Translations under genes and position numbers: made by a program | Assembly: GCA_013178165.1 (NCBI GenBank) | Contig: JABLXG010000019.1 | Span: forward strand, 1 to 64,000 | Length of the DNA: 64,000 bases | Direction: 5' to 3' | Source: Anaerolineae bacterium | Lineage (GTDB): Bacteria; Chloroflexota; Anaerolineae; Aggregatilineales; Ch27 | In this document: positions 19,436 to 42,368 of the stretch, piece after piece | How positions within the stretch are numbered: position 1 is the first letter of the stretch | How the letters are laid out: the number at the start of each line of letters is the position of its first letter | Notes under the pieces: generated by a model | Told to the model about the DNA's origin: nothing | Databases searched by the model: none | Seen by the model: only the letters and a program-made list of their open reading frames with translations

Positions 19436-19512
19436 GTTTGTTCGACCTGGCTGAAGCGTTCAGGAAGCCAGGCTGTCCAGTGTGCCGCCGGCACAAAGCG
19501 AGTTTGCTATGA
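19420..19512 (+). CDS. Short overlapping ORF from repeat copy 2 (possible coupling peptide)
   Basis: ATG start; 30 residues with the intact CPVC motif of the DUF6062 N-terminus. Its TGA overlaps the ATG of the real gene as ATGA, a classic translational-coupling geometry. Either a passive duplication remnant or a leader peptide that delivers ribosomes to the gene start. Confidence 0.3.
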   Translation: MGTPLSLFDLAEAFRKPGCPVCRRHKASLL

Positions 19513-20243
19513 GCACTCCTCTGAGTTTGTTCGACCTGGCTGAAGCGTTCAGGAAGCCAGGCTGTCCAGTGTGCCGCCTGATGCGCCGTGACGTGGAGAA
19601 GTACATCCACTCGCTGCTCTTTGAGGGCTACAAATTCCCGGAGAGCCACGAGCGTTTTCAGGCTTCGCGCGGGTTGTGCAACGCCCATGCCTGGCAGATG
19701 GCCGAGAGCTTCAAAGGGGCGCTGCTGAACATCGGCACGTACTACGCCGGGGCGCTGCGCCAGTTGTTACGCGACCTGGACGCGTCTGATCCGGGCGGGG
19801 CGGCACGTTCCGGTTTGGCTCGTCTGCTGGGCGGGGGGGCGGGCGGGCCGGTTTCCGCGTTGGCCGACCGTCTGGAGCCGCGCGGGCCGTGCATCGCCTG
19901 CACCATTCATCAGACTTCGGAGCAACTCTACACCCGCACCATAGGCGAGCAGATCGCCGATCCCCGCCTGGCTGAGGCTTACCGCGCCTCAGAAGGCGTT
20001 TGCCTGCCGCACTTCCGCATGGCCCTGCGCCAGGCGTCGGCGGCTGGCCAGCGCGAGTTGGTCGCCATCCAGCGGGGCGTCTGGGAGGCCCTGCTGGCCG
20101 ACCTGGACCTGTTCCGCGAGATGCACGATCACCACCACACGGGCGAGTTCATGGGCGAGGAGGGCGATAGCTGGCTGCGTGTCCTGCGCGGCATGGCCGG
20201 TGAGGAGGGCATGTTCGGCGTTGGCGATGGGAGGAAGAAGTAG
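19509..20243 (+). CDS. DUF6062-family Cys-rich protein, copy 1
   Basis: 244 residues. Two cysteine-rich half modules are visible: an N-terminal CPVCRLMRRDVEKYI with RGLCNAHAW, and a middle PCIACTIH with GVCLPHFRMAL. The pattern CxxC...C-x-x-H repeated twice suggests two metal or haem/cluster sites, but the ligand is unknown. It ends with a conserved GEEGDSWLRVLRGMAGEEGMFG block. The 39522-40247 gene is a clear paralogue: the first residues align one to one (MSTPLSLFDLAEAF with MVTPFTYFDLVDAF) and both keep all Cys/His motifs and the same C-terminal block. The ATG at 19509 is the third copy of a tandem start region. A strong bidirectional terminator follows. The function of the family is not established. 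Confidence 0.75.
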   Translation: MSTPLSLFDLAEAFRKPGCPVCRLMRRDVEKYIHSLLFEGYKFPESHERFQASRGLCNAHAWQMAESFKGALLNIGTYYAGALRQLLRDLDASDPGGAARSGLARLLGGGAGGPVSALADRLEPRGPCIACTIHQTSEQLYTRTIGEQIADPRLAEAYRASEGVCLPHFRMALRQASAAGQRELVAIQRGVWEALLADLDLFREMHDHHHTGEFMGEEGDSWLRVLRGMAGEEGMFGVGDGRKK

Positions 20244-39320: not shown

Positions 39321-39349
39321 TTGACAGACCTGCCGGGAAGCGCCATAAT
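39321..39349 (+). promoter_or_regulatory. Strong sigma70 promoter for an RNA leader
   Basis: TTGACA (39321-39326), exactly 17 bp, CATAAT (39344-39349). Predicted start near 39356, giving a transcript that reaches a terminator before the DUF6062 gene. Confidence 0.75.
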
Positions 39350-39355
39350 TCAAGC

Positions 39356-39468
39356 AGATCAACCACATCAGCAGCGATGAGGCTCGCTAGAGTCGAGGCT
39401 TCTCGACCGAAATGTCTTCCGGACTAATAGCCTCTACCCCGCGACTGGGCGGACGGTAGGGGCTTTTT
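39356..39468 (+). ncRNA. Putative attenuator leader or small RNA upstream of the DUF6062 gene
   Basis: About 113 nt between a strong promoter and a rho-independent terminator. A 6-bp hairpin GTCGAG-GCTT-CTCGAC lies at 39392-39407. GAGGCT (39379-39384) can pair with AGCCTC (39429-39434), which is also the left arm of the terminator, so the two pairings exclude each other, as in riboswitches and attenuators. It matches no riboswitch or T-box consensus I know. A free-standing small RNA is the alternative. Confidence 0.5.
39429..39468 (+). terminator. Terminator inside the leader
   Basis: Ten-bp stem AGCCTCTACC (39429-39438) with GGTAGGGGCT (39455-39464), one G-T pair, followed by TTTTT. It ends 53 bp before the downstream start codon, so expression of that gene needs read-through. 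Confidence 0.75.
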
Positions 39469-39521
39469 GTATCGGAAGTCGCGACCGGTGCCGGATTTTT
39501 TCTGCCTCTATGGAGGCCACC

Positions 39522-40247
39522 GTGGTCACACCTTTCACCTATTTCGATCTGGTTGACGCCTTCACGCAACCGGGATGCGCGATCTGCCATCTGCTCCAGC
39601 GGGATGCCGAGCGTTCGCTGGACGCCCTGCTGTATGAGTACGTCAACGATCCTGAGGTGCGCGCCGCCTTCCGCGCTCGTCGGGGCCTGTGCAACGAACA
39701 TAGCTGGCAGCTGGCCAGCCATACGGGCAACCTTCTGGGGATCGTCCTGCTCTATCGCGGGGTGATCGATGAGGTGCTGACGGCTTTCAGGCAGACGCTG
39801 CCGCAACCCCCGCCAGCGGAGGATGCATCCGTCGGCTGGCTCCGTAACCTGCCCAGACAGGCTATCCACGCCCTGAACCGGGCTTTGCAGCCCGTCAGGA
39901 AGTGCACGATCTGTGAGTCCCTGGCCGGGGCGGAAGGGCAGTACCTGCAGGTTCTGAGCGAGTATGCCACTGACGAGAAGCTCCTTAAAGCCTACCGGGA
40001 GTCTGATGGGTTATGTTTGCCTCATTTCCGGAAGATGCTCAAGACCACTCAAACGCTGGATCGATCGGCACTCCTGGTTAGCGTGCAATATTCGATCTGG
40101 TCACGCCTGTACGCCGACCTGCAGGAGTTCATCGACAAGAGCGACTACCGGCGGATCAGCGAAGCCAAAGGCGTCGAGGGCGACAGCTGGCGGCGGGCCA
40201 TCCGCGGCACGGCGGGCGAAGAGGGTGTGTTCGGCAAGGATACCTGA
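39522..40247 (+). CDS. DUF6062-family Cys-rich protein, copy 2
   Basis: 241 residues, paralogue of the 19509 gene. It conserves QPGCAICHLLQRDAE with RRGLCNEHSW, then KCTICESLAG with GLCLPHFRKML, and the terminal GDSWRRAIRGTAGEEGVFG. The two CxxC plus C-x-x-H sets suggest metal or cofactor binding; the role is unknown. Start: GTG 39522 lies 5 nt after GGAGG (39512-39516), and from here the N-terminus aligns residue for residue with the paralogue. The in-frame ATG at 39510 overlaps that site and would add four residues. It is controlled by the leader with the internal terminator, whereas copy 1 sits in the recD2 operon. Confidence 0.78.
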   Translation: MVTPFTYFDLVDAFTQPGCAICHLLQRDAERSLDALLYEYVNDPEVRAAFRARRGLCNEHSWQLASHTGNLLGIVLLYRGVIDEVLTAFRQTLPQPPPAEDASVGWLRNLPRQAIHALNRALQPVRKCTICESLAGAEGQYLQVLSEYATDEKLLKAYRESDGLCLPHFRKMLKTTQTLDRSALLVSVQYSIWSRLYADLQEFIDKSDYRRISEAKGVEGDSWRRAIRGTAGEEGVFGKDT

Positions 40248-40297: not shown

Positions 40298-40894
40298 ATG
40301 AACCATCTGATATCATCTTCTGAACCCCTGCCAACTGGCAATGATCCTGGCTTTAAGTCGCTTACTGATGATTTTGAGCGCACCTTCTTTGAGGGAGACG
40401 AGCAAATCCATCTACAGGTCACGCTCATGCGGGAGACCGGAGAAACCATCCGCCCGGTCATTGAAGAAAACGGCTGGAAGATCAACGACGGCCTGATCAT
40501 CCTGCTGACAACCGGCATGGCTTATCGGCGGGCGGAACGCGCCCTGCAGGTGGCCCAAGGGATCGATGACCTGTCAAAGGAGGATGTTAGAAAACTGCTT
40601 GAGCGTTTGGCCGTCATTGAAGCGCGTTACGCCTCCATCAAGAATTTTGCCTTCAGCATCATGCGGGACCACCGGACGCTGGAGATGCGCTTTACCCCTC
40701 TGGAGATCAAACACCGTGCATTCAAGAACATGCTATGGCCGCTGCAGGAGGAGAACGAAGCGCTGAAAAAAGAAGTAATCCGGCTGAAAGCCGCGCTGAC
40801 AGCCCCGATCCAGGATTTTCCACTCCCTCCTGTCCAATCTTTGCACGTCCCCTGGTGGCGTCGGGTATTCAACTGCTTGAGCGGCCACCAATGA
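40298..40894 (+). CDS. Coiled-coil protein of unknown function
   Basis: 198 residues, soluble and strongly helical. A central block (QVTLMRETGETIRPVIEENG, then AERALQVAQGIDDLSKEDVR) is followed by a charged coiled coil (LQEENEALKKEVIRLKAALT), then a Pro-rich stretch and WWRRVFNCL at the end, which could sit on the membrane surface. No family was recognised. It lies 50 bp after the DUF6062 gene and 30 bp before the target duplication of an ISAs1 element, so its own downstream region has been split off. Confidence 0.5.
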   Translation: MNHLISSSEPLPTGNDPGFKSLTDDFERTFFEGDEQIHLQVTLMRETGETIRPVIEENGWKINDGLIILLTTGMAYRRAERALQVAQGIDDLSKEDVRKLLERLAVIEARYASIKNFAFSIMRDHRTLEMRFTPLEIKHRAFKNMLWPLQEENEALKKEVIRLKAALTAPIQDFPLPPVQSLHVPWWRRVFNCLSGHQ

Positions 40895-40950: not shown

Positions 40951-41114
40951 CCGGTAGTGTATCTTTCGCGGTTGAAATTCAGATGCCGGTTGAAGGTTGC
41001 CCATCTAAGCACCAAATCGCATGTGTATTTTCTCTCAAAATGACACGCGACTTCATTCTGTTGCAGGAACATGAAAACCATTCCACGAATTTCAACCGAA
41101 AAGGATACAGTACC
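40951..41114. repeat. MITE-like element nested in the ISAs1 left end
   Basis: The ~164-bp segment is bounded by imperfect inverted repeats of about 28 bp: GGTAGTGTATC...CGGTTGAAATTC (40953-40980) and its complement (41087-41114), with a perfect 12-bp inner match CGGTTGAAATTC. CAAAGT occurs on both sides (40945-40950 and 41115-41120), a possible target duplication. No coding capacity. Removing it leaves an IS leader of about 90 bp, normal for this family. Confidence 0.55.
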
Positions 41115-41192
41115 CAAAGTTCCAAGACAAAAAGGCCTTTCCTGGTTAAGGTAGTGTTGTGCGCCACGAACCCTGCACCAGGAAAGGTCAAC

Positions 41193-42368
41193 ATGGACTA
41201 TACCATAGCCGGAAGCGGACAGATAGAGGCACTTTGCGGGGAGGTAGGCGGGCTCTATGAGCGACTGAAGGAGTTAAAGGATCGGCGGGACCGGCGCGGG
41301 GTACGCTATCCGTTGGCGGCGGTGCTGATGATCATGGTGTTAGCCAAGCTTTCGGGAGAAGATGAAGCGCGGGGGATAGCGGAGTGGGCGAAGTGGCGGG
41401 CCAAGCTCTTGGCGAAGGCGCTGGGGCTCAAACGGGAGAGCATGCCCCATCACACGACCTACAGTCGGATTATAGGGCAGGCGGTGGAGGTGGAGCAGTT
41501 CGAGGCGGTGGTACGGGAATACTTCAGCCGCCACCAGCCGGCCGAGGCTCACATTGCGCTGGACGGCAAAGCCATGCGGGGGACGATCGAGCCAGGACAC
41601 ACCCAAGGGGTGCATCTGCTGGCTGCCTATCTGCCAGCGGTGGGGGTCGTGGTGGGACAAAGTGCAGTGGCCAGCAAGGAAAACGAAATTGTGGTTGCCC
41701 CTGCGCTGTTGGCCAGTCTGGACTTGCACGATGCCGTGGTGAGTGGGGATGCCCTGTTGGCTCAGCGGAGCTTATCGAGCCAGATAGTGGCGGCAGGGGG
41801 AAACTATCTGTAGATCGTCAAGGACAACCAGCCGCATTTGCTGGCGGACCTCGAGCGCCTGTTTGCCCCCGAAAGCTGCTTGCCAGGCCATGGCCCGCTG
41901 CCCGTCGATTTCGCCCGTGCCAGCACCCTGGACAAAGCGCATGGGCGGCTGGAACGGCGTACTCTGACGGCCAGCAGCCTGCTCCAGGGCTACAGCCAGT
42001 GGCCCCATCTGGCTCAGGTGTTCCAGCTTGAACGGCAAACCCTCACCCTCCGCAGTGGCCACCTCACCTATGAAGTCGTCTACGGCGTAACCAGTCTCTC
42101 TCGCGCCCAGGCCTCGCCGAACCGCCTCCTTCACCTGGTCCGTCGTCATTGGGGAATCGAAAACGAGGCTCATTACTCCCGTGATGTGACCTTCAAGGAA
42201 GACCGCTGTCGCTTAAAGACGGGCTGCGCCGCTCATGTCATGGCGATCCTCAACAATCTGACCCTGGGGCTCATCCGGTTGTTGAAGTTCGACTTCATTC
42301 CCCAAGCACGCCGCTTCTTCAATGCTCGGCTCGACCTGGCGCTTGACCTGCTTCTGGCTCCTCCCTGA
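41193..42368 (+). pseudogene. ISAs1-family transposase, interrupted by an in-frame stop
   Basis: The frame is continuous from ATG 41193 to TGA 42368 except for one TAG at 41811-41813, in GGNYL-stop-IVKDNQPHLL. Family members have a Trp or Leu codon here (TGG or TTG), so one substitution explains it. Before the stop: DRRGVRYPLAAVLMIMVLAK, HIALDGKAMRG (first Asp) and VSGDALLAQ (second Asp). After it: HWGIENEAHYSRDVTFKED, which contains the last acidic residue. GGAAAGG precedes the ATG. Transposase would be inactive unless the stop is suppressed. Confidence 0.88.

Follow-up and report, generated by a model that had tools for sequence, protein, structure and literature searches.

The closest known system is the fluoride riboswitch (RF01734), represented by the T. 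petrophila aptamer (PDB ID: 4ENC) and the B. cereus crcB switch. In its established mechanism expression is turned on by fluoride, as the bound aptamer holds its pseudoknot and the terminator fails (PMC11077080, PMC13273304). The expression platform is a terminator overlapping the pseudoknot, A40 and U48 form the linchpin and the U41A variant does not respond to ligand (PMC11077080). Genes known to be controlled in this way include crcB, CLC-F, enolase, pyrophosphatase and Na+/H+ exchangers (PMC11139923) as well as mutS (PMC2864571).

The locus analysed here lies in a 64,000-nucleotide stretch of Anaerolineae DNA (contig JABLXG010000019.1, positions 1 to 64,000), referred to as the window, and its leader is, judged from the sequence, very probably a divergent fluoride (crcB, RF01734) riboswitch of the transcriptional ON type that controls a DUF6062 operon. 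It has in common with RF01734 a P1 stem with an AUG loop, a 6-bp pseudoknot, J1/2, P3, a 3' part of the form URAU-pseudoknot-UAC, the A40/U48 linchpin and a terminator overlapping the 3' strand of the pseudoknot, and a gene set of the fluoride type is present in relatives. It differs in scoring below the Rfam reporting limit, in a J1/2 of 25 nt that contains a stable hairpin and in controlling DUF6062. In addition, its pseudoknot GAGGCU:AGCCUC ends in U-A where others wobble (RF01734 consensus GGAGUU:GACUCC), and J1/2 reads GAAAU after the hairpin where the consensus has AAC (AACC).

Layout of the locus and anatomy of the leader

The features, all on the plus strand, are as follows.

39321..39349, +, sigma-70-type promoter, TTGACA-17 nt-CATAAT, 11 of 12 consensus matches
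39373..39438, +, predicted fluoride-riboswitch aptamer, divergent, with a hairpin insert in J1/2 (R2 model, 51.6 bits, E=1e-12)
39373..39388, +, P1, AGCG/CGCU around the 8-nt loop AUGAGGCU; A6, U7 and G8 are 39377-39379
39379..39384, +, pseudoknot 5' strand, GAGGCU
39392..39407, +, extra 16-nt hairpin inside J1/2, GUCGAG-gcuu-CUCGAC
39414..39424, +, P3, GUCU-ucc-GGAC
39425..39428, +, UAAU, corresponding to U38-U41 and including linchpin A40 and U41
39429..39434, +, pseudoknot 3' strand AGCCUC, which is also the start of the terminator 5' arm; U48 (39435) is next
39429..39468, +, intrinsic terminator, 10-bp base AGCCUCUACC/GGUAGGGGCU followed by a U-run
39522..40247, +, DUF6062 gene with two CxxC...CxxH motifs; GTG 39522 is the likely start, ATG 39510 a possible one
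40298..40894, +, ORF198, of a family without a Pfam match, following DUF6062

A sequence-only reading of this locus had described a near-consensus promoter, two hairpins and a terminator 53 bp before the start codon of a DUF6062 gene, and all of these were recovered. The promoter scan returned 2 promoter-like sites against 0.6 expected from shuffles, the hairpins fold as claimed, with P1 at 39373-39388, the insert hairpin at 39392-39407 and the short P3 at 39414-39424, and the end of the T-run lies 53 nt from GTG 39522. The terminator is strong (-24.2 kcal/mol folded alone) and is absent from the pattern-scan list because its loop exceeds 8 nt. GTG 39522 was preferred as the start codon because homologues begin MVTP... 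and GGAGG lies just upstream, and the encoded protein is a clear member of DUF6062 (PF19538; 80.7 bits against a gathering cut-off of 27, E=1.4e-22). Four related leader operons likewise have ORF198 after DUF6062, and a homologue stands directly after the leader in L111. Between ORF198 and a DUF3048 gene the window carries a transposase gene divided between two reading frames (40983-42368); since DUF3048 lies directly after ORF200 in the same-genus genome G001 (L003), an insertion element has entered there. A second, more distant DUF6062 gene was observed at 19482-20243 of the window (39.8 bits), where no fluoride-type leader was detected.

The RNA from 39373 to 39438 reads, in order, AGCG-AUGAGGCU-CGCU, the hairpin-bearing J1/2 of 25 nt, GUCU-ucc-GGAC, UAAU, AGCCUC and UACC, to which the RF01734 consensus GGcGAUGGaGUUCgCC..AACCGCC..GGCUGAUGACUCCUAC corresponds. 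It thus comprises a 4-bp P1 with an 8-nt loop starting AUG, a 6-bp pseudoknot between the P1 loop and the 3' strand, and a P3 stem followed by URAU (39414-39428). The ligand-site and linchpin letters A6, U7, G8, U38, A40, U41 and U48 are all present in the window, where A6, U7, G8 and U38 are the positions we take to be the conserved ligand site of the fluoride riboswitch structure. The earlier statement that the leader fits no known class consequently did not hold, as it has the anatomy of the fluoride riboswitch and matches the R2 model described below at E=1e-12; the class had been hidden from view because the Rfam model scores the window copy below its reporting limit. The pairing of GAGGCT with AGCCTC, and its mutual exclusion with the terminator, stood, whereas what had been called an antiterminator is the aptamer's own pseudoknot.

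Detection and covariation of related leaders

A search of the window with Rfam at gathering scores and at E<=10 returned no fluoride match, and on that result by itself the leader would have passed for an orphan. The window copy does not reach the RF01734 gathering score, which is a detection threshold and not a biological definition, and RF01734 gave no report in the window's own genome or in the same-genus genome G001. The copy is missed because of its 16-nt J1/2 hairpin and its non-consensus pseudoknot and J1/2 letters. Two covariance models were used: R1, from four leaders including that of the window, and R2, from 19 RF01734-passing leaders all outside the window's clade, whose alignment was laid out with R1 and hence with a model trained on the window copy. 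R1 found 71 leaders in 62 of the 396 genomes of the class, these being assemblies, several of them MAGs. R2 scored the window leader at 51.6 bits (E=1e-12) against 10.9 bits for the next-best site in the window, and recovered canonical RF01734 crcB leaders at 33-37 bits.

Family-model searching, which had been proposed as a check, thus failed for the window itself and succeeded for its sister leaders, of which L068 (42.5 bits), L074 (39.5), L066 (39.0) and L071 (37.5) reach RF01734 gathering with the same core, several of them with a J1/2 hairpin. As many R1 leaders, some insert-bearing, pass RF01734, a continuous series joins the window form to the ordinary fluoride riboswitch, and an orphan leader class was rejected once these Rfam-grade sisters had been found. 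The Anaerolineae leaders with J1/2 inserts (for example L074, with 39 nt extra, L066 and L055) have the core letters and insertion point of the window copy, and several leaders of this type pass RF01734 gathering; unlike the window they keep AAC, and they regulate Na/H exchangers, DUF6062, crcB, CLC-F and others. A T-box was likewise dropped for the window leader, which gave no match and has none of the T-box motifs. Elsewhere, a T-box leader was noted at L078:240-529 (-), just under the Rfam cut-off (85.5 vs 93 bits).

Conservation and covariation in relatives, which the sequence-only reading had named in its proposed tests, were both found, the covariation in an alignment of 74 leaders. The window-type leader also precedes DUF6062 in G001, G014 and G035, and in G055 in a version with a different hairpin; of 15 MAG loci found with a closer DUF6062 alignment, 6 have a leader upstream of DUF6062. 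Across the family J1/2 is between 4 and 61 nt long, with a stable hairpin in 45 of the 74 aligned leaders. Across P1, the pseudoknot, the insert hairpin and P3, 97.8% of cells are standard pairs, and two-sided changes occur in 180 cells against 54 +/- 6 in shuffles, a count reached in 0 of 500; slid-alignment controls collapse. All four P1 pairs change on both sides (99.3% paired), all four P3 pairs covary, as do all six of the insert hairpin, for which the counts lean towards R1, to which the alignment was fitted, and the pseudoknot is paired in 100% of cells, one pair varying GC/AU/GU. In 61 of 62 related leaders the terminator shares the 3' strand of the pseudoknot and changes along with it. 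Both mutually exclusive pairings of the proposed terminator-type regulatory leader covary and are conserved. A6, U7, G8, U38, A40 and U48 are invariant in 74/74 leaders and U41 is kept in 73/74.

These data also bear on two readings without a ligand. A functionless chance fold upstream of DUF6062 might be argued from the folding energy of the whole leader, which is only modestly below that of shuffles (z=-1.72), but it can be practically dismissed, being already refuted by compensatory change conserved across 74 sequences and by a descriptor of P1, 6-bp pseudoknot, URAU and UAC that matches the window once and 100 shuffled windows not at all. A ligand-free attenuator, or a terminator under protein or peptide control that resembles a riboswitch, is very improbable: terminator/antiterminator logic could serve other inputs, but neither leader peptide nor T-box features were seen, and the letters of the unpaired loop and junctions have been kept together with the helices, which would be expected of an aptamer but not of a plain attenuator.

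Gene context, candidate ligand and proposed switching

Of the fluoride-type target genes, the window has only DUF6062 after its leader. Leaders of relatives also stand before genes for crcB, CLC-F, enolase, Na+/H+ exchangers and MutS, and before inorganic pyrophosphatase further down the operon. A leader that shares the hairpin architecture of the window copy (L082) precedes crcB (PF02537) in G001, of the window's genus and a sister species. The CLC-type fluoride antiporters after leaders have PDB 6d0j as best solved match (E=6.5e-56, against 9e-7 for chloride CLC). In L103 one leader drives enolase and then DUF6062, and a leader-crcB unit faces that operon, while in G009 (L036) tandem RF01734 aptamers precede crcB and then DUF6062. 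Fluoride is the ligand suggested by this context, because leaders of the class precede crcB, CLC-F and other fluoride genes, and the window copy would accordingly be expected to bind it.

Several further genes were observed after fluoride-type leaders. Dynamin-family GTPase genes follow directly or soon after in L081, L037 and L104. ORF153, a small protein family that matches nothing in Pfam, is found repeatedly in the leader operons of L123, L120, L118, L117, L008 and L012, standing directly before crcB in L123 and before enolase in L120. Long, mutually similar proteins, often as adjacent pairs, follow in L106, L119, L122, L128, L133, L134 and L086; those tested, the L106 pair and L122, contain MutS domain V.

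Neither crcB nor a fluoride-type CLC was detected in the window's genome (G000), so that these genes are known only from its relatives; the assembly is 98.6% complete, and a gene may have been missed. The sole CLC of the genome carries GPEDP/GGIFAP motifs and is of the chloride type, as opposed to the fluoride-type GREGT/GGEVTP. Apart from the DUF6062 leader, no fluoride-type leader was found there; weak further matches (E 0.07-0.9) had no aptamer plus terminator on inspection. Together with the off-consensus J1/2 letters and the failure of Rfam to find the clade, this absence could be taken to mean that the clade, with AAAR/GAAAU in J1/2 and a fixed hairpin, retains the fluoride fold but now responds to something else, be it a different anion, a metal or a DUF6062-related metabolite. 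Such a change seems improbable, however, as the ligand-site positions are unchanged, L082 with the same hairpin precedes crcB in the sister species, and ordinary RF01734 leaders (49.9 and 45.8 bits) also precede DUF6062. Moreover, AAC in J1/2 may not be strictly required, since the RF01734-grade L122 (35.1 bits, before mutS) has AAAAAAT and likewise lacks it.

With fluoride as ligand, switching in the window may be pictured by analogy with the established system. Transcription would start near 39356, and P1, the inserted hairpin, P3 and the 6-bp pseudoknot would form first. When fluoride is lacking, the GGUAGGGGCU strand would invade and take AGCCUC from the pseudoknot, completing the terminator; when it is bound as a Mg2+-F- cluster, the A40-U48 linchpin and the pseudoknot would withstand invasion and the polymerase would continue into DUF6062 and ORF198. 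The anatomy, covariation, mutual exclusion and gene context of the leader are read directly from the aligned loci, and the ON direction of the window copy would follow that of its described counterparts.

DUF6062 and a probable fluoride response

DUF6062 is a frequent fluoride-riboswitch target, unreported in the literature searched. Of the 71 R1 leaders (396 genomes), 30 have a same-strand DUF6062 gene no more than 5 kb downstream, 20 of them close enough for it to be the next gene, against 1 in the upstream same-strand control. With the Rfam model at the Rfam cut-off, DUF6062 is downstream of 15/54 leaders where about 0.012 would be expected from its density, and it also follows ordinary RF01734 leaders such as those of 49.9 and 45.8 bits. 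An R1 leader was found at 32 of the 150 listed DUF6062 genes; most DUF6062 genes are therefore not under such a leader, and the association, though specific, is a partial one.

No function is recorded for DUF6062 (PF19538), and its name was not found in the literature searched. Two CxxC...CxxH motifs are invariant in the protein, whose AlphaFold2 model is all-helical with a mean pLDDT of 87. Foldseek gave no clear fold relative (best E=0.88), and the best match of the sequence to solved structures had E=0.047, with nothing below; a best VIA-align Z of 4.5 over 85 residues was discarded as typical of chance among helical proteins. DUF6062 is probably a fluoride-induced, cytoplasmic, helical stress protein, with CxxC/CxxH as putative metal-binding motifs and a possible protective role. 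More tentatively, and with rather low confidence, it could be a new kind of fluoride-resistance protein with two metal sites. It would then shield or restore metal enzymes poisoned by fluoride, or act as a sensor of metal-fluoride complexes, and would provide the main fluoride response in genomes, such as that of the window, without detected crcB or CLC-F.

The expectation that the ligand would offer a clue to DUF6062 was thus justified, as fluoride, if correctly assigned, says something about this family. A stimulus would be assigned to an uncharacterised family in a large group of uncultured Chloroflexota, and a role in protection against fluoride becomes directly testable. Because the standard model misses the clade with a hairpin-bearing J1/2, the fluoride regulon of these bacteria would be under-counted; ORF153, ORF198, the dynamin-like GTPases and the paired MutS-domain proteins would join it, and DUF6062 would belong among the genes that this bacterial group switches on against fluoride.
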